Shown here: piece after piece, positions 1-24,290 of the stretch
How the letters are laid out: every line of letters begins with the position of its first letter
How positions within the stretch are numbered: position 1 is the stretch's first letter
IMG/VR virus record: IMGVR_UViG_3300025071_000051
Coordinates: 1 to 24,290 of that record
DNA: 24,290 nucleotides
Strand: one strand, 5' to 3'
DNA from: a virus
Notes under the pieces: model-generated
What the model was told of the DNA's origin: nothing
Database searches by the model: none
What the model saw: only the letters and a program-made list of their open reading frames with translations
Translations under genes and position numbers: made by a program

Positions 1-3000
1 TACCTATAACATCCCCTAAATATGTAACAAATTTAACATTAGCTTCTGGTTTATATGTTTTTAATATACCTCTACCACCTTCTGTTCCTAAAAGTTCATC
101 TATTATAGAATTTCTTATGTCTTTAGGAAGCACATCTCCTTTAGCTTTATTATATCCTAGTTTCTCCCATATAATAGGATTTTTATTTACTAAAGCCTCT
201 ATAGCATTTCCTTTTTCAGTGTTGCTAGTTTCTTTATCTAATATTCTTTTAACTAAAGACTCATTATCAACTTCCTCTAACTCTTTAATTGATTTTTCTG
301 AAAGATTCATAGAAGCTTCCTCGCCTCTCATTAAGTCTTTATAAGTAGATTGTTTGTTTTTTATTAAGTTGTTAATATTTTTACTTCTATATTTACCACT
401 TAATACAAAATTAATAAATTCTTTACCATTGTCTAAAGCTGATTCAAATTCTAATTCTGATATTTCTTTTTTAGAAAGTTTATTAGCATCTTTAACTGAT
501 TTTTCTCCTTTTATATTATCAAAAGCTTTAGCAGCATCAAGTTGTATAAATTCATTAATAAATTCTTTAGCTTCAGATATTGGTAATTGTTCTCCTTTTA
601 ATAAAGCCTCAGCTGTAGCTATATTTCTTTGTATCATTTCTTTAAGAACTCTATCATAAAGACCTTTATCTTTTAAGCCTCCAATAAAATCATCTAAATA
701 ATCTCTAACTTCTTTTTCTGCTTCAACTTTAGCATCTGCCTCACTTATAGACTTTTCCTTTGCTATCTCTAAAGCTCTAGTTTCTATAGCTCTTTCAGAA
801 AATCTAAGCTCATGTGGTATGTGGAATATTTCATGAACCTCAGTTCCTGCTTGTAAATATTTTTTAGTACTCTCTGTATTGATTAATATTATAGGATTAC
901 CTTCTTTATCAATACCTTGTAGCCCAAATTCTTGTTCTGCAAACTTACCACCTAATTCTTTTTTCTTAGCCTCTATTTGTTTGTTATTTCCTTCAAAAAT
1001 ATTAATCCCAGCAGCTTTTGCATCAGCTATGCTTTTAGCTTGATTAATAACTCTTTCAGCGGCCTCAGCTTGAAAAGATTTTTGTTGTTTTTTGTTTGAT
1101 AAATCTAATTGTTTTTCAAGAATATTTTTTTGATAATCATAATAAGATTTTTCAATGTTTTTTCTTTTAAAGCGTTTTTCTAAATTAACTAACTCAGCAG
1201 ACAAAGTATTAGAAACCATACTTTCATTAACATAGTCTTGAAAGTTTTTTCCTGTTAAATTACCTGCAAATAAAGAATTACCTACTTCAGAAATTTGCAC
1301 AGCAGTGTTTAAAACTTCTTTAGCTTTAACTTCAGTTAATCCATTAGCCATTAATTGTATTATAGCTGAAGATTCTCCGCCACCAGCTAAAGTTATAAAA
1401 TCTTTTGCAGTCCCACCAGATCTAGTTATATTTAAAGCAGAGTTTTCTAATTCAGTAAAATCACCAAGTTTATTATCATTGCTTCTATACTCTTCAGCTA
1501 GTTGATCAATATCTGGCTTCATTTTCAATCTATTGAAATTGAATTCTAAGTTTTTGTAAACCTCGTTTCTCTGCTCTTCATTTAAATCCTTATAAGCGCC
1601 TTCGCCTTTAGAAATTTCGTTTAATTTTTTTGCATAAGCTTCTTGAAGCTTAAATATGTAATTAGGATCTTGTGCTGTTTTGTTGCCTTCTTTTGGCCCT
1701 AAAGCTTTTAAACCTATAGCGGTTCTCATCCTATTCCATTCTGGATTATTGCCGCTTATCATATCAATCTCTGCATAGAAGCCATCTACGGCCTTTCTAA
1801 CATACTGATCTGGTCTAGCCGCTCTCATAAATAGTAAAGCACCCGCTGTTTCTATTAAGCTCTTAGAGTCAGTTATTTCATTAAACAGTTGACTCATCGT
1901 TTTTTCACCTTGAATAACATCTATAAGACCTCCTGGTACTTCACCCGCTTTTATACCTACAGCACCAGTCAAAGCTTCTCCAGCTACACCAACTGCTTTT
2001 ACACCTGTTCTTGTGGTCCATTGAGCTATGCCTTTTGCATAATCTAAAGCTCCAGTTCTACTAGCCGTACCAGGTTGCTCACTAATCCATAGTAAGCTTT
2101 GCCTAAGGTTTTCATTACCAGGTTTTCCACCCGCGTTTATAATAGCATCATTATATGCGCTACTAGCTTTTGAAAAAAGTAACCTACTTCCACCGGCAGC
2201 CATAGCAAATAACAATGGCTTATCAATACCTTGTTCATCAAAAACATTTCTTTCTATAATATTACTACCAGTTAAACCTATATATTCTAAACCAACAACA
2301 CTCGCGTAGTTAGCAGCCCTTTGGCCACCTTTAGTTAAAACAAATTCACTACCTTTTTTAATAACACCTAAACCTGCTCGTTTCATAGCGACCTTAGAAA
2401 GTGCTTGTATTCCTTTTATTATACCAGCAGATCCACCACTTAATAGATTTGTTCCATATATTTCTGCGCCCATCCTTGCTAATGCAGGAACTTGAGCTCC
2501 AGCAGCTTCCCAAGAGTCTAGATGATTTACTAATGCATCTTGCTCTACTGTTCTTTCAATATCAAAAGCTTCTTCAAAAACATCTAATGCAACTTTACGG
2601 GACTGTGTTTCACCTAAATATCTACCACCTAAAGCTGGTATTGTTTCTTCTGCTACTTGATCTAACGTTCTCTTAACGCCGTAATCAGACTTGCCATAAG
2701 TCATAGGGTCTACATTAAGTTGTTGAGCTAAAAGATTAATAGATCTTTGTTCTAATAAATCATTGTATTTTGTTATTAATTCATTAGATCCGCTAGCTTC
2801 TGGTAAAGTTGTTAAGTATTCTGGCATTTCACCACTTTCAACCCAGTTTTTTAATTTGTCTATATCATCTTTTGCACTTCCTTTAAAATCTCCAGTAACA
2901 AGGCCATAAGCTCCTGACAAAGCTTCTCCAATTTGTTGAGGCACATTAGCGTCTAACATTGTTTGAGAATAACCTTGTTTTACTATGTCTTCAGCTAAAG

Positions 3001-4603
3001 ATTTTAATTCAAAATTTTGTTTTCTAAATAAATTAAGTAAGTCGTCACTGCTTTTAAACATATATTTCTCAAGCTGTACAGCGTTTTGTTGTTGTTTAGC
3101 TTTAGATTCCTTTACCTGTATATCTTTTACTTCATCTACAAATCCACCATCAGCTGTTCTTAATAAATTTATTTTACCATCATCAAGCATACTTCTTACA
3201 CCGGCCAGCAATTCATTAGAATATTTTTCTCTTAACTCAGGATCTTTTTCATTTAAAGACTTTTCTTTTAATGCTTTCAACTTTAACAATTCGTCTTTTG
3301 AAACTCCAAAAGGAGATTCTGAATCAGAAGCGTTTTCTGCTATAAATACTTTTTCTGCTTTATCTTCCTCTATTTCAAACCTTTTATCTTGAGCTTTTTC
3401 TCCAAATTCTTTTAAATCTTCAATATCTTGTTTTTCTACAGCAGATTCTTTTTTTCTATTGTCATAAGCTGAAAGTATAGCTCTACCATTAGGCGTATCT
3501 TTTAAATACTCATATATGTTCTCTTTTATATTGATTTCCCTAGCTGTTGTAAATTTATTTAAAAAATATTTATCACTAACATCAACTTCGCCTGTAATAG
3601 CGTTAGGTCTAGCGTTTAACAAAGCTTCCATGTAATCTTTATCCTGGTCAGTTTTAAAAACGCCTTCAGGAACACCTAATCTAAGTAATTCATTTTTATA
3701 ATCTTGAAATTCACTTTCTCCTGAGTCACTTGATAAGTCAAAATTAGGGTTTGGATTAAAACCTTTGTCTACTCGTTTAGTTACTTTGTTTTGAAATAAA
3801 ACATTTTTTTCATTTTCTTTATTATAAAAATTAGTATTCCAAGCGGTGTTCATTTCACCAAAGCTAGAATTAACAACTTCATCAATAGCTTCGTCTATTG
3901 TTAATTTATTTTCAAAACTAGAATTTTCAACTAATTCTAATGCTTTTTCAGTTATCTCTTTAGATACTGGTAGATTTTTACCATTGTCTAAAACAAAGTT
4001 TTCTCCAAGCGTTCTTTCAGCTCCACTAGTATAACTACCTTCTTCATTAAATCTAGCTTTATTAGCAAAACTTAAAAAATCTTTATAAACGCTATAGCCT
4101 TTTTCATCAGAAAACTCAGCGCCTCTACCAGCATTATATTCCGTGTTTAGATTTAATCTTATTTCTTCACCTGTTTTTTTATTAGTAACTTCTAAAACAT
4201 CATTTATATAGCCACTACCCATATACGGATCGTTAAACTCTAAATAATCACCATATTTTTTCTCTAACTCCTCTATTAAAGGATCTTCTTCAATATTATT
4301 AAATTCCTCAAAAGAAATGTCACTACCAACTTTGGTCATTTTAGGTTTTTCACTTTCAGTTTCTTGTATAGTAGTTTCTTCAACAACTTCACCTTGCTCA
4401 GGTAAATCAATTGAGTAATATTCTTTTATTTCTAAAAACTTTTCATTATCAATATTTCCATTATCATATTTTTCATACAAATCTTTCATCATAGAAGCGT
4501 TGTCTCCATTGTAATGATCTACTATACTATCAATCTTAGCTTGATCAATTTCTTGATCAGTGTTTTTAGAATAAAAATCTACTAAAAAATCTTCTATTGG
4601 CAT
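1..4603 (-). CDS. Giant virion (ejection/cargo) protein with a putative zinc metallopeptidase motif, C-terminus outside window
   Basis: By my reading this frame is open from the ATG at 4603 to the left edge, giving at least 1534 residues with no stop. The N-terminal third is acidic and charged, with a helical stretch around residues 380-420. Residues about 700-900 are rich in Gly, Ala and hydrophobic residues, as in phage proteins that enter the host envelope with DNA. Around residues 1140-1190 lies a Lys/Gln-rich helical region. It is followed by a compact segment (about 1190-1270) containing EVHEIFHI, with H1257, E1258 and H1261 forming the HExxH signature of zincin metallopeptidases. The gene is last in the structural run, 11 bases after a probable cargo gene. 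Position and size suggest an internal virion protein delivered into the cell. The peptidase role is inferred from one motif and its context. The third zinc ligand and everything past residue 1534 are not identified. Confidence 0.8.
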   Translation of the reverse strand, partial: MPIEDFLVDFYSKNTDQEIDQAKIDSIVDHYNGDNASMMKDLYEKYDNGNIDNEKFLEIKEYYSIDLPEQGEVVEETTIQETESEKPKMTKVGSDISFEEFNNIEEDPLIEELEKKYGDYLEFNDPYMGSGYINDVLEVTNKKTGEEIRLNLNTEYNAGRGAEFSDEKGYSVYKDFLSFANKARFNEEGSYTSGAERTLGENFVLDNGKNLPVSKEITEKALELVENSSFENKLTIDEAIDEVVNSSFGEMNTAWNTNFYNKENEKNVLFQNKVTKRVDKGFNPNPNFDLSSDSGESEFQDYKNELLRLGVPEGVFKTDQDKDYMEALLNARPNAITGEVDVSDKYFLNKFTTAREINIKENIYEYLKDTPNGRAILSAYDNRKKESAVEKQDIEDLKEFGEKAQDKRFEIEEDKAEKVFIAENASDSESPFGVSKDELLKLKALKEKSLNEKDPELREKYSNELLAGVRSMLDDGKINLLRTADGGFVDEVKDIQVKESKAKQQQNAVQLEKYMFKSSDDLLNLFRKQNFELKSLAEDIVKQGYSQTMLDANVPQQIGEALSGAYGLVTGDFKGSAKDDIDKLKNWVESGEMPEYLTTLPEASGSNELITKYNDLLEQRSINLLAQQLNVDPMTYGKSDYGVKRTLDQVAEETIPALGGRYLGETQSRKVALDVFEEAFDIERTVEQDALVNHLDSWEAAGAQVPALARMGAEIYGTNLLSGGSAGIIKGIQALSKVAMKRAGLGVIKKGSEFVLTKGGQRAANYASVVGLEYIGLTGSNIIERNVFDEQGIDKPLLFAMAAGGSRLLFSKASSAYNDAIINAGGKPGNENLRQSLLWISEQPGTASRTGALDYAKGIAQWTTRTGVKAVGVAGEALTGAVGIKAGEVPGGLIDVIQGEKTMSQLFNEITDSKSLIETAGALLFMRAARPDQYVRKAVDGFYAEIDMISGNNPEWNRMRTAIGLKALGPKEGNKTAQDPNYIFKLQEAYAKKLNEISKGEGAYKDLNEEQRNEVYKNLEFNFNRLKMKPDIDQLAEEYRSNDNKLGDFTELENSALNITRSGGTAKDFITLAGGGESSAIIQLMANGLTEVKAKEVLNTAVQISEVGNSLFAGNLTGKNFQDYVNESMVSNTLSAELVNLEKRFKRKNIEKSYYDYQKNILEKQLDLSNKKQQKSFQAEAAERVINQAKSIADAKAAGINIFEGNNKQIEAKKKELGGKFAEQEFGLQGIDKEGNPIILINTESTKKYLQAGTEVHEIFHIPHELRFSERAIETRALEIAKEKSISEADAKVEAEKEVRDYLDDFIGGLKDKGLYDRVLKEMIQRNIATAEALLKGEQLPISEAKEFINEFIQLDAAKAFDNIKGEKSVKDANKLSKKEISELEFESALDNGKEFINFVLSGKYRSKNINNLIKNKQSTYKDLMRGEEASMNLSEKSIKELEEVDNESLVKRILDKETSNTEKGNAIEALVNKNPIIWEKLGYNKAKGDVLPKDIRNSIIDELLGTEGGRGILKTYKPEANVKFVTYLGDVIG
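821..1030 (-). other. Putative zincin-like metallopeptidase core within the giant protein
   Basis: This segment encodes about residues 1192-1261 of the giant protein. It reads as a short helix, a Gly-containing loop, a probable strand (NPIILIN) and then the helix AGTEVHEIFHIPHE. The order strand, short linker, HExxH helix is the usual core of zincins, in which the two His bind zinc and the Glu activates water. Glu and His residues follow closely (HIPHE, then several Glu on the next helix), so a third ligand is possible but not pinned down. Only the motif is directly seen; activity is inferred. A chance HExxH in a long charged protein is the main alternative. Confidence 0.5.
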
Positions 4604-4614
4604 ATTTTATTTTA

Positions 4615-6207
4615 TTAAATTGGAGTTATACCTAAAGCCTTGTTTAAAGCAACTTCCATTTTGTTTAAATCACCTAAAACATCTTCCCTGAATAAATCAT
4701 CAAAGTCAATTTCTTTAAAAGTTGGTTTTGCTATAGTGCCACCTTTTCTATATAGTTTATTAGGGTCTGGATTATCTACAGAGTTAGATTCTTTAACTTC
4801 AGCATTATTACCTCTAAAAACCTTGGAACTAGGGTGGTTTTCTAAATACTCTTTAATCTCATCTAATCTCTGTACTTTTAGCTTTTCTGGATCTGGAAAA
4901 TCATCTTTTTCAGGATCTAAATATACGTATTTTTTACCATCAAATCTATATGTTTTTTTATAATCAGGATTTCTATTGCCATTAGGGTAAAATTCAGTTT
5001 CATTTCGATAAAGCTTGCCTGGTTTAGCATCTTTTATTTTAACCAATGGTCCCTCAACATCAACTTCATCAACTTCAATTTCATTAAAAGTGTTTTCTAT
5101 AAAATCAGTGTGGTTTAAACTAGGTACTTTTTTCTCACCTTTTCCACTTTTAGGGTCGTTAAGAATTGTACTACCAGCAACATTATTATCACCTTTTTGT
5201 GTTGTTCTATCTGATTGAGAGTAAGCATCTACTAGATAATCAGCTTTAGCTTTCTGTAAGTTTCTTTTTTGATCTTCACTTCCATTCCATGTCTCGTCTT
5301 TTCCTGGTTCATAAAAACCGTTAAAAACAAGCATTTGATAATCGTCACTATCTATTAAAGCTATAGCTTGCTCGTCATTAACTATACCATTATAAGCTTC
5401 TTTAGCTTGTTGATCATAAAGCATTGTTTCTTGAACAGTCTTTTTATTGCCTCTATTATCAGTTAAACTCATTTTTAAAGCTGGGTATTTTTTAACTTGA
5501 GTTTTCCATTCACCTTCATAGCCTCCTAAAACAGCTTTTTTATCCACCATTGTTACAGGAGCTTGAGCTCCATTAGCTCTAGATAATGCTTGGTTATTTA
5601 AACTATATTTATAAACTTGTTTTTTCCCATCTGTGTCAATATATTCTTGGCTAAGTATAGAATTTCCATTTATAATTTCAATTTGCACTGGGTTTACTCC
5701 ATTTACAGAACTTCCAGCTCCGCCATATAAACCCATATTACTATATAACGCTCTAGCACCAGGATCGCTGTCAAAACCCACTAAATCAGCTTCACCGTCT
5801 CTTATTGCATTTACATAATTTTCTGATTCTAGCTGAATAACACCTAAATTACCACCTAAATCTTGAACTGCATTAATTATGTTCTCTTCTTTTTTTATAG
5901 TATCTGTTTGGTCTTCACCCATTGAATTAATAGTAGTATAATATAAATCATCAGCCTGTGCTCTTAATTGATTTGCAAAGCCACGAGCTACAGAATTTTC
6001 AGCAGCGTTAGGATCATCTATTTCCTCAGCTTGTCTATAAATTTGCATTTGCTGAGTTAAGGCAGCTTCTTCGTTTAACCTTATATTTGCTTTTGCAGTT
6101 TCAAAATTAACACCAAAATCAAGCAATTCTGTGTTTATCTTAGAACCACTTTTGTCTATTAATGCGCTTTCTCCTTGTGTTAGTCCTGGTCTTGAGTATG
6201 TTCCCAT
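4615..6207 (-). CDS. Probable internal virion (cargo) protein, 530 residues, function unknown
   Basis: I do not recognise a named domain. The N-terminal 110 residues are helical and rich in Ala, Gln and Glu. A mixed region with Gly-rich turns follows (about 160-180). The C-terminal 250 residues are strongly charged with many Asp, Lys and Pro. Two similar phrases, KPGKLYRNETEF near residue 395 and DPNKLYRKGG near residue 480, suggest a small repeated strand motif. There is no signal peptide or membrane segment. The gene lies 6 bases after the 299-residue ejection-like gene and 11 bases before the giant gene. The preceding gene ends in a tandem TAATAA. Position among genes of this type suggests a protein packaged in the head and released with DNA, but the sequence does not prove this. 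Confidence 0.85.
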   Translation of the reverse strand: MGTYSRPGLTQGESALIDKSGSKINTELLDFGVNFETAKANIRLNEEAALTQQMQIYRQAEEIDDPNAAENSVARGFANQLRAQADDLYYTTINSMGEDQTDTIKKEENIINAVQDLGGNLGVIQLESENYVNAIRDGEADLVGFDSDPGARALYSNMGLYGGAGSSVNGVNPVQIEIINGNSILSQEYIDTDGKKQVYKYSLNNQALSRANGAQAPVTMVDKKAVLGGYEGEWKTQVKKYPALKMSLTDNRGNKKTVQETMLYDQQAKEAYNGIVNDEQAIALIDSDDYQMLVFNGFYEPGKDETWNGSEDQKRNLQKAKADYLVDAYSQSDRTTQKGDNNVAGSTILNDPKSGKGEKKVPSLNHTDFIENTFNEIEVDEVDVEGPLVKIKDAKPGKLYRNETEFYPNGNRNPDYKKTYRFDGKKYVYLDPEKDDFPDPEKLKVQRLDEIKEYLENHPSSKVFRGNNAEVKESNSVDNPDPNKLYRKGGTIAKPTFKEIDFDDLFREDVLGDLNKMEVALNKALGITPI

Positions 6208-6213
6208 AATTTA

Positions 6214-7113
6214 TTAATTGGTTGCTAAGTTTGTATTTGAAATAAAAGGCTGCTTAGTATCTGTTATAAGATTACTTATGTAAGCGTATTCATCACTATT
6301 AGGATCAAATGAGTTTCTTTTTTCTATCATAGAATTAAGACCTGCATCGTCCCAAGCCGTTCCTTTACCAGTGCCTCCAAAATCAGAAGCTTTAAAATTA
6401 CCATATCCACTTAAAGGATCTTGTGTATTATAAAAGTCGTCGGGAAGATTTTCCGGACCCATTACTCCTTGAGATTCACCACTGTTAGCATTTGGATTTT
6501 CTCTATCTTGAGAAACCATACCAGCAGTAAATGCTTTACCCATACCACCTATACCAGCTATCATAGCATTTTGAGATTCAAGTTGTTGTCCTCTTAGTAC
6601 ATCAGCTTGGCTTTGCAATCTATCTAATTGAGACACCTCTCTCTTTTCTTGCATTTCCATTCTTTTAATTTCACCTTTACCTTTTGCAATATCAACTTGT
6701 AATTGGCCTTGAGCTTTAAGTTTTTGATTATTAACTTCTTGCTGTTCGATGCTAGCGCTAACACCTTGTTTACTTTTTAAAGCTGCGTTAGCTAATGCAG
6801 TTGCACCACCAGCAGAAGCTCCAGTAGCTCTCAACGTATCTAATGTGGTAGCTAAAGCTTGATCTGTTTGTTCCATTTGTATTTCAGCTGCTTGAGTAGC
6901 AACAGCTAAATTTTTATATGGATTTTCCATTGCTCCAAAACCGTTTGTTATCTTTTGTCTACCAAGCTCATAAGCTTTAATTTCATTCATTTTATTTCCA
7001 TAGTCTACTTTAGCTCTTTGAGCTTGCCAACCACTTAATAAAGCTCCTGCACCTTGAATGCCTATTTGCATTTTAGAGTCAGGTGTTAAATCAAATCCTT
7101 TAAATATATCCAT
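6214..7113 (-). CDS. Probable ejection (internal virion) protein, 299 residues
   Basis: The protein is mainly helical and rich in Ala, Gln, Met and Gly. Residues 10-30 are a Gly/Ala-rich hydrophobic stretch (GIQGAGALLSGW). Residues about 63-185 form a long helical region with the segment QTDQALATTLDTLRATGASA. A second Gly/Ala/Met-rich stretch (MIAGIGGMGKAF) lies at 184-196. The last 100 residues are polar and probably loosely folded. This makeup, long amphipathic helices with short Gly-rich hydrophobic parts and placement just after tail genes, resembles small ejection proteins of short-tailed phages such as T7 gp14 and P22 gp7. The comparison is by character, not alignment. The leader is nine bases, nearly all A, ending ATTATG. 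Confidence 0.8.
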   Translation of the reverse strand: MDIFKGFDLTPDSKMQIGIQGAGALLSGWQAQRAKVDYGNKMNEIKAYELGRQKITNGFGAMENPYKNLAVATQAAEIQMEQTDQALATTLDTLRATGASAGGATALANAALKSKQGVSASIEQQEVNNQKLKAQGQLQVDIAKGKGEIKRMEMQEKREVSQLDRLQSQADVLRGQQLESQNAMIAGIGGMGKAFTAGMVSQDRENPNANSGESQGVMGPENLPDDFYNTQDPLSGYGNFKASDFGGTGKGTAWDDAGLNSMIEKRNSFDPNSDEYAYISNLITDTKQPFISNTNLATN

Positions 7114-7122
7114 AATTTTTTT

Positions 7123-9102
7123 TTATTGTGATGATATTACAAATTGCGACGAAACGGCAAATAATTCTTTAATTCCACCAGGAACAGTCGTATCATCAGT
7201 TGATAGCTTTACAGTAGCGTAGTATCCTTTTATGCCTGTCATTGCTGAACCAAAAACAACTTCACCAGCGGTTGGCTCAGTATTGTTTATCAAGTTAGCA
7301 TAGTATTTATTTTCTTTTATTGTAAAACCAGCTCTGTAAGTTATACCATTTTCTATATAAGCGCCTTCTTCATAACTCTTAACACTATTTGTAACATCTA
7401 ATTCTGAATTAACGTTAGGTAAAACCGCATAAGAATCTGAAATAAAACTGTCTACTTGCCAACCGCTGCTGCCTTCGTAGTTTATTGTTTTAAAATTCTT
7501 ATTTACAGAAGGGTTTGGGTTAAAAATAAAAGTTATAGAAGATTTGTTTTCAACCCCATAAAAATTATTAGCAGAAGTCAATGGACTATAGTGTAAATAT
7601 AAAGAGCCATTTTTAGCTGTATAGAAATTGTTTTTTAAACTAAACATTAAGTCAGGTCTAAAAGAATAAAAGGTTGTCCAACCCTGCACATTCTCTTTGA
7701 AAGTTAGCGTACTATAGTAATCACTTGTTTCATCTAGTGTTTTACTTCCTGAGTGCTGTTGTAGTGATATTACATAGTTATCTTTATAGTTGTCAAAACC
7801 ACCTTCTATTTTATCTTTCTCGTAATATAAAAATCTTAATCTTGGATATATTCCAGAAGATGTTAAATACTCAATATTTATAGGTCCATTATCAGTGAAT
7901 AAACAAGTTGTGTAACTGGTTGGTGGATAAGGAAGAGTACCTGAACTTATGTCGGTAATACCTACAGTTCCAGTGCCAGTCACGTAAGCATTAGTGTTTT
8001 GCCAAAACCCATCAGCAGCACTTTTATCTGAAGGTAATTTTGTGTTTGTAAAATTTACTTGAATTAAAGAGCCTACTATTAAAGTGTCAGTACCTAAAAC
8101 TGGTAGTCCTATTACAGGGGCGATATCTCCTAATTCGCTTACCGCAATCCAAGATCCCAAAGCTGTTGGTTGAGTTACACCAACAGTACTTGGATAGCTA
8201 GCAACTTGAGGTTGTTGGTTAGCGTAGCTGTTAGAACCAGAAGTTATAGTTGTAACAGCGTATTCAGCAGAAGTTAATTCAATTTTATCATTTAACTTAG
8301 CTAATTCGTCTCTAAAGAAATCTTTCATGCCATACTGTGATATTTCAGTTATACCGTCTCTAGACAGCCTTAAAATAGCACTTCGGTCTTTGTCTGCAAA
8401 GTATCTTCTGAATCCAAAGCTAGCAAAGCTCTCTGGATTTCTGCTTATACCATACTCGCCTGTGTAAGGAGTAACTTGACCTATCACAACATTTGAAGTT
8501 GTATTTATTGCAGTTCCTTCAGCTGAGTATATAGCATCTTTATCTATTAATGCTGTACTAACTTTATTTTCTTGAAATATAGTCAAGTTGTTGTCCATCG
8601 CGTATAACAGTTGCACAGATCCATTGTGAGGATCAACAGCTTTTGTTATATCTTCGCCAGTAGCAAATACATTTGTTCTGTTTATATTTGTTCTAGAGTT
8701 AAAAACACCTGAATATACCAAAGCATTACTCCTATGTCTAACTTCATTAGATTCTTCCATTAAATATGCTCTAACCCCTAAGTCTACAGAAGAATTATTA
8801 AAACCACCTCTTATTCTAGACTCTTCAACAACCCAATTAGATCCATTGTTTTCGTCCCAGCTATTGTTAGGTGTTGAATAAACATTAGAATACGGTGGTT
8901 CAACAACCAAGCCAAAAGGAATTGTTTGAGGAAAATTATACCAATTGTCATTAGTATAGTCAAGATAAGAAACTCCTGGATATACACTTGGAAATACATC
9001 TAGTGTTTCACCCGCAACAGTTGAATTAGTTTTTTGAAGAGGAGTAGTAACTTGTTTTAACCAGAATGTGTTGTAATATTTTACTTCTAAATTATAAGCC
9101 AT
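7123..9102 (-). CDS. Tail protein, muzzle/nozzle-like second component, 659 residues
   Basis: This is a beta-rich protein with many aromatic and Asn residues and no signal peptide. Residues about 90-270 hold the most recognisable part: EESRIRGGFNN (93-103), YAMDNNLTIFQENKVS (167-182), ALIDKDAIYSAEG (184-196) and YGISRNPESFASFGFRRYF (217-235), then LRLSRDGITEISQYGMKDFF. I recall this pattern from tail muzzle or nozzle-type proteins of uncultured marine and crAss-like phages. It may fold as a propeller, like T7 gp12 and P22 gp10, but that is inference. The gene starts 11 bases after the 1564-residue gene. The two may form one tail structure and could be halves of what is a single chain in relatives. 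The leader is A/T-only with no Shine-Dalgarno. Confidence 0.82.
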   Translation of the reverse strand: MAYNLEVKYYNTFWLKQVTTPLQKTNSTVAGETLDVFPSVYPGVSYLDYTNDNWYNFPQTIPFGLVVEPPYSNVYSTPNNSWDENNGSNWVVEESRIRGGFNNSSVDLGVRAYLMEESNEVRHRSNALVYSGVFNSRTNINRTNVFATGEDITKAVDPHNGSVQLLYAMDNNLTIFQENKVSTALIDKDAIYSAEGTAINTTSNVVIGQVTPYTGEYGISRNPESFASFGFRRYFADKDRSAILRLSRDGITEISQYGMKDFFRDELAKLNDKIELTSAEYAVTTITSGSNSYANQQPQVASYPSTVGVTQPTALGSWIAVSELGDIAPVIGLPVLGTDTLIVGSLIQVNFTNTKLPSDKSAADGFWQNTNAYVTGTGTVGITDISSGTLPYPPTSYTTCLFTDNGPINIEYLTSSGIYPRLRFLYYEKDKIEGGFDNYKDNYVISLQQHSGSKTLDETSDYYSTLTFKENVQGWTTFYSFRPDLMFSLKNNFYTAKNGSLYLHYSPLTSANNFYGVENKSSITFIFNPNPSVNKNFKTINYEGSSGWQVDSFISDSYAVLPNVNSELDVTNSVKSYEEGAYIENGITYRAGFTIKENKYYANLINNTEPTAGEVVFGSAMTGIKGYYATVKLSTDDTTVPGGIKELFAVSSQFVISSQ

Positions 9103-17486: not shown

Positions 17487-18977
17487 TTATATAGTTGACT
17501 TGAATAACACGAAGTTATTAGCAGCTTGCGTAACTAAACATCTTTCAGATAAGAAATTAACAGTCATTGCATCTAAATCAGAAGTGTAAGCACCTCCAAC
17601 AGATCCAGTAACCCATGACTTCATTCTACGATCATCAGCTTCAGAAGCTCTATATCTTACATGTAAGAAAGGACGTCTGATATTAGATCCTAAACTTTGA
17701 TCATAAACAGTTGATGTTCCAGCTGGAATCATTACACCATCGATGTCTCCGATTAATCCTCTTGTTGAAAAGTCATTTAGATATTTCCAGTCAGTCTTAT
17801 AAAAATCATAAGAACCTCTTCTAAATCCTGAAAATCCAAAATTCATTGCCATTTCAGCTTCGTTGTCAAAAAGACCATAAGAAGCAGCTTGAGTAGAAGC
17901 ATAACCTCCACCAGCTTGAGCAGCAATCATATCATCAAAATCAAGAGCAGTAGCTCTAGATAAGAATAACATGTTTTCTTCAATAGCACCTTGTGTATCT
18001 AATTGTTTTAGGATAGTATCAAAATCACCTAATGCACCAGCTCCAGGAGCAGCAGCACCAGCAAAATCGTTATAAACGTTTCCTCTTGCTTCGATAGCAG
18101 CAAATAAACCTTCAGAACCAGGTCCATTTTCATCAGCAGCAGGAGCGCCTAAACCTAAAGTAACCGCACCAGCAGCGCCATTATTAACAGCTTCAACCAT
18201 AGACATTTCTAGGTAATCTTCAAATCTTAATCTTGTTTCAGACTCAGACTTTAAATACCATAAGTATCCATTTGTTCCATCTTCAGTAGCAACTTCTACC
18301 CAACCAATTTGAGCTGTATCAGAACCTGATACTTCAAACTTATCTCTTAAGATAATTGGCTTGTTAGAAAATTGTGTTAAAGTTGGCTCAATGCTAGACA
18401 TTGCAGAGTAACCGGCAGTTCCGTCAGCAGCACCAGAGCCTTTAGCAAATTCAGAACCATACACAAATACTTTAACAACTGTACTAGCTAGCGCTGTTGC
18501 AGCAGCTACACCGTAGGTATCAAAAGCTACAGTAGAAACTAGTGGATTTCCAGCAGGAACTCCAGGAGCTGCATTTACTCTAGCTTTAAGAGTAGTTAAT
18601 CCATCAGAAATAACTATTGTATTACCAGCCTTTATAGCGCAAGTTTTATTAGCTTCAATTGGAACTGTCATTGACAGGCCATTAGCAGCTACAGTACAAC
18701 CTTCGTAAGAAACGTGTAATCTATTTTGTTCAGACCAAATTACTTGATCAGATGTCATAGGCATTTCAGCGCCTACCATTCTCAAGAAACCACCTAAAGT
18801 TCGGTTTCCGTATCTTTCTACTTCTGCTTCGTAAAGCTCAGGTAGATATTGTTGTGCAAAGTTTCCACCAGTTGCATTGTCAAAACTCAAGTAATTTGAC
18901 GCTAACGTCATTTGAGTTTGATGAGGCAAAAGTGATGGAGGAAATGCATTTGTTGGGTTTAATGTTGCAAAACTCAT
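17487..18977 (-). CDS. Major capsid protein, 496 residues
   Basis: The gene follows terminase, portal and scaffold-like genes in the normal order of head modules, and its length is usual for an HK97-fold capsid protein of Bacteroidota podoviruses. Residues 1-50 are an N-terminal arm. YGNRTLGGFLRMVGAEMPM (56-74) and VIWSEQNRLHVSYEG (79-93) are phrases I recall from crAss-like and related capsid proteins. The rest is rich in Ala, Gly, Asp and aromatic residues. I see no clear protease site and no protease gene in the window, and the scaffold is a separate protein. It would form the shell around the portal. GC content is higher than in most of the window, fitting a highly expressed Ala/Gly-rich protein. 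Confidence 0.88.
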   Translation of the reverse strand: MSFATLNPTNAFPPSLLPHQTQMTLASNYLSFDNATGGNFAQQYLPELYEAEVERYGNRTLGGFLRMVGAEMPMTSDQVIWSEQNRLHVSYEGCTVAANGLSMTVPIEANKTCAIKAGNTIVISDGLTTLKARVNAAPGVPAGNPLVSTVAFDTYGVAAATALASTVVKVFVYGSEFAKGSGAADGTAGYSAMSSIEPTLTQFSNKPIILRDKFEVSGSDTAQIGWVEVATEDGTNGYLWYLKSESETRLRFEDYLEMSMVEAVNNGAAGAVTLGLGAPAADENGPGSEGLFAAIEARGNVYNDFAGAAAPGAGALGDFDTILKQLDTQGAIEENMLFLSRATALDFDDMIAAQAGGGYASTQAASYGLFDNEAEMAMNFGFSGFRRGSYDFYKTDWKYLNDFSTRGLIGDIDGVMIPAGTSTVYDQSLGSNIRRPFLHVRYRASEADDRRMKSWVTGSVGGAYTSDLDAMTVNFLSERCLVTQAANNFVLFKSTI

Positions 18978-20162: not shown

Positions 20163-22574
20163 TTATTTAGGGCCAAACTGCTCTAAACCAAAACCGCCCA
20201 TTGTATCATTACCTGCGGATTCAAAGTTTTTAGGTAATAAATCATTTTTTCTTTGATCAATAAGCTCAGACTGTTGCGTTGCTTGCATTTCTGTTCTTTG
20301 ATCTTTTCTATTCTCTTTTACGTCTTCGTTCTGTTGCTTAGCTTTTGCTTGAGCTTGAGTTAACTGCATATTGTAGTTAAATTCAATCTCCATCAACTGT
20401 TGTTTGATCTGAGCTTCTCTTTCCATTTTCTGAATAGAAAACTGAGACTTAGCTTGTTCGTAGTTTATATTTTGCTCTGCTATAACTTGTTGTTTTTGAG
20501 CTTCAGCTAATGATATTTGTTCAGCTGCTTTAGCATTAGCCTGCGCTTGTGCTTGCATATTCTCTTGCTGCATTTGCTGATCTTTGGCTTGTTTATCTTT
20601 ACGCCTTTTCTTTAACATTTGATTAGCAAGTTTTAAATTATTAACTTGCCTAATATCTATAGCATCTTCAAGATCTATTTGACCACCTTTTAAAGCTATT
20701 TGAATATTTTGTTCTAGTATCTGCTTTTCTTCTTCATCAGGTTCTAACTCTAAGAATATACCAAAGTCATGAATATTAACTTTAGATAATTCTTGTAGAG
20801 TAGCTACATTATATCTTGATATACTAGACATTAATGTTTGTTTGGTAAGTGGAAAAGCTAAAGCATCAGCTATTCTTAAAGATATATTCTCACAAGATCT
20901 TAACGTTAAGTATAAACTAGCTTGTAATATGTGTCTAGTTGCTACATTAGAGTTAGCAGCTGCTAGTTTTTGTAAACCAACTAATGACTGCTTGTCAGGT
21001 AAAGTACCATCTCTAGCTTCATTAAGCCCCGTCACATCTCTTATCATCTTAAGATAATACTCGTAAGTTTGTATTAAAGACTGTATTTTAGCACCGCCAG
21101 AACTTGATTGTAATTCTTGCACTGGTATTTTACCAGGATTCATACCACCATCTTGAGTCATGGATCTACCTATTACAGAACCTGTTTGGAAATACATATT
21201 TAAAGCTTCTGCTGGGTTATAGTTGGTTCCATTACCTAAATCAACCTCTGCCAAACCATCCATATCCAAGTAAACACCGTCAGGTACTACTCTAGACATT
21301 ACTTGTTGTAATTTTAAATGAGTTAATTGAATCATATCAGCAAAACCTGTAATACGAGATACTATAGACTCTATTCTACCTTTGTACATTCTAGGAGCAA
21401 CTATGTTGTAATTCATATTAACCTTAACAGTATCAGACATAGGTCTAGTCATGTTCTCGGCTAATTCCCATTTTAACATTTTATTGTGTCCTAGTATTTT
21501 AGCTCCAGAGTAAAGAACTTCAATAGATCTAAATGCTTTTTTAAAACCATCAGTTTCTGCAGGTGGATTAAATGAATCAGTTTTTTCAATAGCTTTTTCT
21601 AAACCATTTGCTGTTTCTTTAATTTTAAATACTTGATTAGCAAAAGTTTTATATTCAAAATATAATACTTGAATTGTGTTGTCATCGTATCTACCGCTCC
21701 AGTTTCTAGTATAGTTTTGATTACCTGGATATTTTTGTATTTCTTTAAGTTCTTCTGGCGTTAAATAAGGAAATTGCTTTTTAAGCTCTGGCATACTTAT
21801 AGACTTTACTTCACCAACGTAGTATAAGTCTTCAAAATTAGGATCTTCACTATATGAATAAACTAAACTAGCTGGATCAACATAATCTAAAGTAACACCT
21901 TCAGATCTATTAAAGCTAGTTTTAACAGATGATATACCTAAAACAGTTAAATCATAATTTAATCTTCTTCTTATTAAATCATACTTATTATTCGCTAAAA
22001 CATTGTTTATAACCTCTTCCTCTGCTACTTCTATAGACTCTTTGTAATTCATCTGCATGTGAAGTTGTATATCTTCTTCACTTTCCATATCTTTAGCTAT
22101 ACCTTTAGAAGCTGATATATCTAAACCTGTCATATCTTGAAGCTTAGCTAAAAGCTCTTTTTGCATTATATCTTTTTGTAATCTCTCTGCGTAGTCTGTT
22201 CTTTTCTTTAATGACTCAGGATCTTGAGCGTAGGCTTTAATTTCGTAATTTCTTTGTGACATACCATTTACAACTATGTCAACAAACTTAGGTATAACTG
22301 GTACAGGTTTCCAGTCTAAGTTTAAATAAGATAAATCGCCATTAATAGATAGCTCATCTTTATATTTTTGAACTGATTGCTCTCCTCTAGCATATAATCT
22401 TAAATTGTGAAAAGAATTATAGTTGCTACCAAACCTATCTGAATAACCATTGCCGTTAGTAAACCACTCAGACTCTACAGCTCTACCTACTTGTAAGCCA
22501 TACTCTTCTGTAGCTTTTTCTGCATCTGGGACTACTTGATCTGGAAATATGCTATTATAATTAGTATTTATCAT
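20163..22574 (-). CDS. Portal protein, 803 residues
   Basis: The gene lies between terminase and scaffold genes and its length is usual for the large portals of crAss-like and related phages. Residues about 55-110 (LRLYARGEQSVQKYKDEL, then PVIPKFVDIVVNGM) and about 210-260 (TSFNRSEGVTLDYVDPASL) match my memory of these portals, which thread DNA into the head and anchor the tail. Residues about 490-560 carry a helical part with a GLNEARDGTLPDKQSLVG phrase. Residues 655-775 form a long Gln/Ala/Lys/Glu-rich coiled coil, longer than in model portals. A short Gly-rich tail ends the protein. Its ATG abuts the terminase stop (TAAATG), so the two are probably translationally coupled. Confidence 0.88.
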   Translation of the reverse strand: MINTNYNSIFPDQVVPDAEKATEEYGLQVGRAVESEWFTNGNGYSDRFGSNYNSFHNLRLYARGEQSVQKYKDELSINGDLSYLNLDWKPVPVIPKFVDIVVNGMSQRNYEIKAYAQDPESLKKRTDYAERLQKDIMQKELLAKLQDMTGLDISASKGIAKDMESEEDIQLHMQMNYKESIEVAEEEVINNVLANNKYDLIRRRLNYDLTVLGISSVKTSFNRSEGVTLDYVDPASLVYSYSEDPNFEDLYYVGEVKSISMPELKKQFPYLTPEELKEIQKYPGNQNYTRNWSGRYDDNTIQVLYFEYKTFANQVFKIKETANGLEKAIEKTDSFNPPAETDGFKKAFRSIEVLYSGAKILGHNKMLKWELAENMTRPMSDTVKVNMNYNIVAPRMYKGRIESIVSRITGFADMIQLTHLKLQQVMSRVVPDGVYLDMDGLAEVDLGNGTNYNPAEALNMYFQTGSVIGRSMTQDGGMNPGKIPVQELQSSSGGAKIQSLIQTYEYYLKMIRDVTGLNEARDGTLPDKQSLVGLQKLAAANSNVATRHILQASLYLTLRSCENISLRIADALAFPLTKQTLMSSISRYNVATLQELSKVNIHDFGIFLELEPDEEEKQILEQNIQIALKGGQIDLEDAIDIRQVNNLKLANQMLKKRRKDKQAKDQQMQQENMQAQAQANAKAAEQISLAEAQKQQVIAEQNINYEQAKSQFSIQKMEREAQIKQQLMEIEFNYNMQLTQAQAKAKQQNEDVKENRKDQRTEMQATQQSELIDQRKNDLLPKNFESAGNDTMGGFGLEQFGPK

Positions 22575-24290
22575 TTATTTTATTTTTGAAACATAACCTG
22601 TGTTATCATATCTTTTAATGCCTAAGTTTATAGACTGTTTCTTTCTAGCAGCTACTGGTGTATACCTGTTCTTGTGACAAGCCATAATAGCTAATCCAGA
22701 ACTAATAGAAGCATCATGCTTTGTTCTATTGTTTATATTAAATACAGCCCAATCTTCTAATGTGCTTTGATGATACATATCACCATGTCCATTTTCAGTT
22801 GATCCTACATGTTCTTCTATGTAAGACTCTATAGCAGCAGCATGCGCTTGCTTAATATCTTCACTTGAATTAGGTATTCCACCTATTTCTTTTTCAGTTA
22901 CAGAAAGTTTGTTCCAAATTTTATCAGGACGATTAATTGAAAAACCTCTATAACCTCTACGCTTAAAATAATATAATAATCTAGGTTTATTATTCTCAGC
23001 TAGTATGGGCATACCGTAAAATACACAAGCCATAAGTACATCTTCAAAAAATATCTCAGCCGTTTGAGGTCTTGATATATATTCTAAGAAAAAATGATTA
23101 GGTGGTGAATCTTCCATAGAAAACTTAGTTAATCCATGTAGTGAACCATTAGATCCTTTTCCATCTACAGTTCCAGAGATGTCGTAACTATCACAACCAA
23201 ATGCACCTATATGATCATTACCAGGGTATTTCCCATTATTTTTGTTAATTATTTTGTTTTGCAAATTAACAGGTGGTACCCAACTTATTTTAAATCTACC
23301 ATCTTTATTAGGAGAAAATATAACCTTACTATCTTTAATTCCGTTTTCCCACATGAAGCTACCTGTTGTTACAGCAGCTGCATTATTAGACTCTAAGTTG
23401 TAATCTATTTGTTGGTATATTTTAGTTAAGTTAAATAAACTTTCTTTAGCTTCATCTCTAAAGGCGTGCATTTCAGTTCTTGGAAACTGCCTGTAATATT
23501 CATTTAAACTGTCTTGATCGTTTCTTAAACCATCTACTTCGTTTTCCCAGTGTTCAATAACGCCTGTTGTAATGTCGTAACCGTCTGCTCCTTTGACGCT
23601 ATCTTTTTCTCTAATGAAAACAGGTGATCCGTAAGAATCCATGAATCCTTCGTAGTTCCACTCCATAGGGATGAACATAGAATAGAGTCCAGAAGAAGTT
23701 TGTCCGTTACGATTTCTTTTTGTAACGTCTGAATTATAGTATAACTTTTTGAAGTTGTTTCCACCTTTATCTAACGCGTTTGAAGTTGAGCCCATCATAC
23801 ACTTGCCTACGATTCTTGATCCTAGTCTTAGTGTTGTTTTTGTAACTCGCCAATTGTTTAATATGTTGTCCGGTCTTTCCCATTTTCCGCTTTCGTCGTG
23901 TGCTAGTAATTTTAATTTCTCACCATCGTAAGAGTTGTCACCAGTATTTTTCCAGTCAATTGTTGTGTCAAGCCCATCAAGTTCTCTTAATTGCTCATTA
24001 CTCTCAAGCTTTCTTCTAGTAAGTTTTGAAGCCGGAACCCTATACGCCAGTTCTGTCTTAGGACGATCCATACCGTCTTGGATCGGCTTGAAGAAAAACG
24101 GATAGTTAACGGATATTGGCACGACTTTATCTGTAAACATTTTTTTAGCATCTGATCCAGATTTAGATAATATACCGAATCTGGAGTCACTGGATATCGT
24201 CGCTTGATTAACAAGCTCTGCTGAGGACATAAATGAAAATCCAGACCTTCTGTTTTTAAGATAGCACATCCCGTAACATCTGTTATCTGC
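22575..24290 (-). CDS. terL: Terminase large subunit (DNA packaging motor), N-terminus outside window
   Basis: The frame is open to the right edge; an ATG at 24269 is internal, since seven in-frame codons precede it without a stop and the motor motif starts beside it. Numbering from that Met, LKNRRSGFSF (4-13) fits a deviant Walker A, KLLAHDESGKW (120-130) a Walker B with catalytic D125-E126, and GKCMMGSTSN (155-164) the coupling motif. The C-terminal nuclease is RuvC-like: D360 in GCDSYDISG, E425 in LAENN and D519 in KHDASISSGLA are the likely metal-binding residues. The protein cuts concatemeric DNA and pumps it through the portal encoded next. The whole catalytic set appears intact. The missing part is probably on the order of 100 residues. 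No small subunit gene is in the window. Confidence 0.9.
   Translation of the reverse strand, partial: ADNRCYGMCYLKNRRSGFSFMSSAELVNQATISSDSRFGILSKSGSDAKKMFTDKVVPISVNYPFFFKPIQDGMDRPKTELAYRVPASKLTRRKLESNEQLRELDGLDTTIDWKNTGDNSYDGEKLKLLAHDESGKWERPDNILNNWRVTKTTLRLGSRIVGKCMMGSTSNALDKGGNNFKKLYYNSDVTKRNRNGQTSSGLYSMFIPMEWNYEGFMDSYGSPVFIREKDSVKGADGYDITTGVIEHWENEVDGLRNDQDSLNEYYRQFPRTEMHAFRDEAKESLFNLTKIYQQIDYNLESNNAAAVTTGSFMWENGIKDSKVIFSPNKDGRFKISWVPPVNLQNKIINKNNGKYPGNDHIGAFGCDSYDISGTVDGKGSNGSLHGLTKFSMEDSPPNHFFLEYISRPQTAEIFFEDVLMACVFYGMPILAENNKPRLLYYFKRRGYRGFSINRPDKIWNKLSVTEKEIGGIPNSSEDIKQAHAAAIESYIEEHVGSTENGHGDMYHQSTLEDWAVFNINNRTKHDASISSGLAIMACHKNRYTPVAARKKQSINLGIKRYDNTGYVSKIK

Follow-up and report, generated by a model that had tools for sequence, protein, structure and literature searches.

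A zincin-like domain in the giant cargo-type protein of a crassvirus-related flavophage

The human gut virome is dominated by crassviruses, which inject a number of very large proteins with no known activity. The DNA analysed here, a window of 24,290 bases that is the entire virus contig of its source record (IMG/VR IMGVR_UViG_3300025071_000051), ends within a giant open reading frame (ORF) carrying the zinc-peptidase motif HExxH, and raises the question of whether such a protein contains a protease, how it would reach the host cell and what it would cut.

The giant ORF (2..4603, minus strand) starts at the ATG at 4603-4601, is stop-free for 1534 residues and exits the window at base 1. A sequence-only reading had placed an open frame of at least 1534 residues here; the ORF reading bears out its openness and position, with the strand corrected to minus. 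Scans of IMG/VR identified eleven contigs with the same domain inside a giant ORF, all of which keep HE[IVL][FW]H. Complete giants among these relatives measure 3350 (L002), 3287 (L015), 3212 (L016) and 3152 aa (L028), and that of L026 about 3010-3020 aa. As complete relatives have 3152-3350 aa, about half of the window protein is missing, and the earlier expectation of further domains past the window was right. The whole window giant had no match in Pfam or PHROGs, the relatives' giants matched no NCBIfam family above cut-off, tblastn of the window giant (P0001) and the L002 giant against 50,697 phage records returned no match, and no relative was found among 84,980 prokaryote genomes. Its N-terminal region (residues 1-1150; 1154..4603, minus) likewise matches no family. 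A sigma-factor-like appearance near residues 1515-1534 was rejected for want of Pfam support.

The neighbouring genes, all on the minus strand, indicate what kind of protein the giant may be. They include the terminase large subunit (TerL; 22575..24290, 5' end cut at the window edge), assigned by its position upstream of the portal as in annotated relatives and matched in relatives; the portal protein (20163..22574; PHROG 6547, 2e-143; 42-52% identity to flavophage portals); a virion structural protein in the major-capsid position (17487..18977; PHROG 13704, 2e-87); and a muzzle-like protein of 659 aa (7123..9102; Pfam crAss_MUZ_C 45.9 bits, cut-off 27; PHROG 14478 virion structural protein, 3e-40). 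A 299-aa protein (6214..7113) in the position of crAss001 gp45 belongs with the phi38:1 gp099 'virion structural protein' family (hhalign E 8e-13), and a 530-aa protein (4615..6207) was assigned to the gp46 position by synteny and a weak profile match to the phi38:1 gp100 family (E 0.004); tblastn found no counterpart of the latter even in close relatives. The resulting order of muzzle, 299-aa gene, 530-aa gene and giant is also that of crAss001 (gp43 ring, gp44 muzzle, gp45, gp46, gp47), in whose virions gp45, gp46, gp47, gp49 and gp50 were detected by mass spectrometry (PMC10172136), with gp47, gp49 and gp50 detected also by a second study (PMC6235969). Because its gene order equals that of crAss001, whose gp47 is in virions, the window giant is called a cargo protein, and the sequence-only claim of a cargo-type protein gains support from this synteny. 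By analogy, the giant is probably packed in the particle and injected with the DNA.

Judged from its genes, the window comes from a flavophage whose muzzle is of the crassvirus type. Its portal, capsid-position and tail genes are similar to genes of Cellulophaga, Flavobacterium, Tenacibaculum and Maribacter phages, which makes a flavobacterium the probable host. The muzzle (crAss_MUZ_C above cut-off) and structural gene order used to define Crassvirales are both present. A tblastn search with the portal at E 1e-5 returned only phages of Flavobacterium, Cellulophaga, Tenacibaculum and Maribacter and one uncultured Caudoviricetes, with no recognised Crassvirales; as its portal is unlike those of recognised members, we treat the phage as a relative of the order and not as a member. 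Short stretches of the GxGYxxGD type recur in two tail proteins (window:15047-16135 and window:9114-13808), a pattern that the spread of a small module between the two would give.

Divergence rises steeply along the operon (window:4615-24290), from a conserved TerL to a 530-aa cargo-position protein that is unrecognisable. Identity to four relatives is 79-88% for TerL, 63-69% for the portal and capsid, with the capsid near 67%, 36-53% for tail proteins, 34-43% for the zincin region and 27-45% for the first 1150 residues of the giant. Taken as a whole, the giant outpaces nearly every other virion gene in divergence. Purifying selection is evident from three sufficiently distant pairs, with dN/dS of about 0.13-0.34 for the frames of the relatives' giants and 0.03-0.32 for the zincin region.

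Within this fast-changing protein the motif stays fixed. HEIFH (residues 1257-1261; 821..835, minus), located as EVHEIFHI at residues 1255-1262 in the sequence-only reading and confirmed there, is the sole HExxH among all window ORFs of at least 150 aa, against 0.0018 expected from composition. In an alignment of nine sequences with 28-43% identity to the window, H1257, E1258 and H1261 are invariant, as are T1254 and E1265, so that the conservation check proposed for these three residues came out positive in all nine members of the window's own clade. Since 25 of the 178 ungapped columns are invariant, the probability that three given columns are so under random placing is about 0.0025. A second conserved block, KEFINEFIQL (residues 1346-1355; 539..568, minus), has K1346, E1347, F1348, N1350, E1351 and F1352 invariant in the nine sequences (KEFxNEF), together with its L. 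Statistically, HEIFH is not a chance occurrence, and that a catalytic motif stays the same while the protein around it changes fast speaks for a function.

The predicted structure places both blocks where a zincin would have them. AlphaFold2 with nine sequences modelled residues 1179-1425 (329..1069, minus) at a mean pLDDT of 84.4 and pTM of 0.81; this trimmed model replaced a first one (306 residues, six sequences), which was set aside since its pLDDT fell below 50 at positions 127-139, the motif itself, and its Foldseek matches were uninformative. The model comprises helix 2-19, strand 24-27, helix 29-39 and strands 49-53 and 59-64, after which HEIFH (model positions 79-83) lies on a clean helix (76-90) following the small sheet; after several inserted helices, KEFINEFIQL is found on helix 169-179. 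This order of helix-strand-helix-strand-strand, HExxH helix and later Glu helix is that of zincins, and it is also the order described for the MPTase domains of polyvalent proteins, in which an N-terminal helix and a three-stranded sheet precede an HExxH helix and then a Glu helix, with variable inserts between these last two helices (PMC5512222). The structure prediction that had been called for thus puts the motif on a helix, and the suggestion of a segment ordered like a zincin core is matched by the model. H1257 and H1261 are the predicted zinc ligands and E1258 the general base, with the third ligand likely to be E1351 or E1347 on the later helix.

Comparison with known folds and families was less informative. 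Foldseek, whose sensitivity is low where a domain has large helical inserts, found nothing significant for the trimmed model in PDB and BFVD; the best PDB match had E 0.59 and no zincin was among the 50 matches listed. Many matches were of glyoxalase/FosB type and were rejected as chance-level (E above 0.5). Sequence searches of PDB with the domain gave nothing significant, and in Pfam the isolated domain reached no family above cut-off, the best being DUF6782 'putative metallopeptidase' (E 0.04, 13.6 of 27 bits); its Elemovirus counterpart has a sub-threshold match to DUF5700 'putative zinc dependent peptidase' (5e-4). As no fold match was significant we call the domain zincin-like and do not file it as a zincin member, and with Foldseek negative and the Pfam match below cut-off, its zinc binding and peptidase activity are inferred from sequence and model.

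Giants occupying the same gene position in other phages fall into two groups. Elemovirus gp18 (3694 aa, HEIFH), Gundel_1 gp074 (2482 aa, HEFGH) and MW202828 (3859 aa, two motifs) carry HExxH; Panino (1829 aa), phi38:1 gp101 (1691 aa) and phi46:3 gp120 (1439 aa) do not. Among isolate giants in this position, those without the motif have 1439-1829 aa and those with it 2341 aa or more. Pervagoviridae phi38:1 gp101, Pachyviridae phi46:3 gp120 and Maribacter phage Panino CDS0069 are flavophage giants in the same position that differ from the window giant in being shorter and lacking HExxH, and whole-giant homology to them was undetectable. The Panino giant (L005:35423-40912) is annotated 'tRNA methyltransferase', a name to which Pfam gives no support. 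Two HExxH motifs each occur in the giants L009:741-12320 (MW202828; HEFGH twice) and L033:2-11818 (HEVFH and HEIQH); the label 'reticulocyte binding/rhoptry protein' on MW202828 is probably a misannotation.

A close parallel in this position is gp18 of Elemovirus (Flavobacterium phages, annotated 'structural protein'), where HE[VI]FH is followed by EEKxAEL and the EEKLAEL form resembles the KEFINEF helix motif; most Elemovirus relatives in IMG/VR have HE[VIA]FH with a downstream EExxAE[LFV]. The rest of gp18 is undetectably similar to the window giant, and differs in having DUF3293, upstream of the zincin at residues 1323-1392 (L008:852-11936), and in lacking the DFDDTV HAD motif described below. 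In two Elemovirus relatives, L044:7745-16957 (3071 aa) and L045:8288-17860 (3191 aa), the motif is broken to HEVWE, while the homologue in L043 has HEAWH; the zincin of L044 and L045 is apparently inactivated, judging from the changed residue, and a long giant can thus do without the site. Such survival of the domain without its site, together with the lack of a significant structural template, is what one might expect if a zincin-like fold were kept for structure and not for catalysis, or if HExxH had arisen by chance on an unrelated helical domain. We consider this very unlikely, given that the two His and the Glu never vary among sequences of 28-43% identity, in a protein that evolves fast, and that the same motif pair recurs in other families in the same gene position.

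The recurrence extends to crassviruses. The crAss001 protein gp47 (L048:16120-23145), annotated as a 'putative RNA-polymerase subunit', has a zincin-like C-terminal domain (residues 2031-2341 of 2341) with the motif GTTYHEAFH, its first His at 2157. A tblastn search with the last 311 residues of gp47 found 54 records, mainly crAss-like phages. YHEA[FW]H is conserved in each of the nine records examined, most of them Steigviridae and Suoliviridae, and a downstream EExxAExFR in those that extend far enough; in Suoliviridae the domain lies inside proteins of about 4300-4550 aa. This crassvirus Glu motif, EExMAExFR (e.g. EENMAEGF), resembles KEFINEF of the window. Profile comparisons among the window, Elemovirus and crassvirus domains gave E-values of 6.5e-6, 7.1e-5 and 5.9e-5, with HExxH always aligned on HExxH, against 0.04 to 0.67 for reversed-profile controls between pairs and 0.005 to 0.06 for a profile against its own reverse. 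Because these matches span short stretches around the motif, common descent of the three domains is likely rather than proven. Although gp47 shares with the window giant its position after the muzzle and two cargo genes and its HExxH and EExMAExF pair, its domain is C-terminal and whole-protein similarity is absent (hhalign E 0.017, motif only).

The crassvirus domain matched no peptidase family in Pfam, and the crAss virion RNA polymerase family had no match in residues 1-1534 of the window giant (Pfam, PHROGs); DFDVD in crAss001 gp50 fits the DxDxD catalytic loop of that polymerase. In openly licensed literature we found no link between crassviruses and a zincin or metalloprotease, and the main texts of two crAss001 papers (PMC10172136, PMC6235969) contain no protease or peptidase terms; the connection seems to have gone unremarked so far, although it may have been mentioned elsewhere. 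It is a plausible proposal, in our estimate only a little short of even, that the zincin is a common, unrecognised part of the largest cargo proteins across crassviruses and related marine flavophages, gp47 included, and that as infection begins it acts on the injected cargo or on the host cell.

Phage-type polyvalent proteins with a zincin-like MPTase domain, such as N4 virion RNAP and P1 DdrB, were described by Iyer et al. 2017 (PMC5512222), and the window giant resembles them as a giant multidomain phage protein in which an HExxH helix and then a Glu helix follow a small sheet. The likeness extends, in the window's relatives, to a chain that holds one more enzyme domain, and by analogy to a likely co-delivery with the genome. 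A HAD-phosphatase-like domain with DFDDTV lies inside the giant of L002 (L002:9674-19726, residues about 2433-2606) and also of L028; it matches PHROG 415, polynucleotide kinase (E 2e-6 and 1e-7), and stands downstream of the zincin. L002 and L028 thus carry zincin and HAD-like domains in one chain, that is, the two or more unrelated effector domains that define a polyvalent protein; the window sequence stops at residue 1534. The C-terminal part of the window-group giants matches the C-terminal part of the Gundel_1 giant (hhalign E 2e-7). Unlike the described MPTases, the window domain falls in no described peptidase family above cut-off and has several inserted helices between its motif helices, and the partner in its relatives is HAD-phosphatase-like, 'phosphatase' being absent from the main text of PMC5512222. 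The kind of protein is already known, as a polyvalent phage protein with a zincin, and the domain family itself is unnamed in Pfam, PHROGs and, for the relatives, NCBIfam.

The explanation that we put first, and regard as evenly balanced between right and wrong, is a polyvalent cargo giant whose zincin, at residues about 1180-1425, most likely cuts the giant itself. The ORF would encode the N-terminal half of a giant polyvalent cargo protein of the virion, in a crassvirus-related phage probably infecting Flavobacteriia. As the synteny with crAss001 gp47 suggests, the giant would most likely travel inside the capsid and leave it through the muzzle in a partly unfolded state, before the DNA or together with it. 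Judging from the sequence and the order of fold elements, zinc would be held by H1257, H1261 and a single Glu of KEFINEF (E1351 or E1347), and E1258 would activate water. Limited proteolysis, in cis or between copies, may follow packaging or ejection, and the cut would separate the N-terminal part from a C-terminal enzymatic part (in relatives, the HAD-phosphatase-like domain and a C-terminal module). Self-processing is favoured because the domain goes mostly with long multidomain giants and because this role has been proposed for polyvalent MPTase domains (PMC5512222). Bands of 270 and >300 kDa are reported from crAss001 virions in PMC6235969, the available part of which assigns no band to gp47; they suggest that gp47 (262 kDa) is packed whole, and if so, cutting does not precede packaging, at least in crAss001, which counts against self-processing.

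Almost as probable is the cutting of a host protein once the giant has been injected. The zincin would then be an injected effector directed at a defence, transcription or envelope factor with the giant as its delivery vehicle, a reading that we hold tentatively, at clearly less than even. Related phages may have or lack the domain, few other virion genes diverge as fast as the giant, and one sublineage has lost the second His, a pattern expected for host-matched functions, and polyvalent MPTases have been proposed as effectors too (PMC5512222); however, no host target or partner was seen, nor any pointer to a specific substrate. The sequence-only reading had also suggested maturation of virion proteins. 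A role in assembly, with the zincin maturing other proteins of the particle (scaffold, capsid), would suit a gene inside the virion operon and a window without a second HExxH, but the capsid-tail operons of phi38:1, phi46:3 and Panino are of the same kind and show no HExxH in the stretches read, and a giant cargo protein is an unusual site for a general maturase. With related phages lacking the domain and one sublineage carrying the degenerate HEVWE, general virion maturation is highly improbable.

Should the domain prove to be a true protease, this would give gp47 and the corresponding marine proteins an enzymatic role in the earliest minutes of infection that can be tested. A single-residue test is offered by one conserved Glu, E1258 in the window and that of HEAFH in gp47, in culturable laboratory systems such as Elemovirus on Flavobacterium sp. 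or crAss001 on Bacteroides intestinalis.
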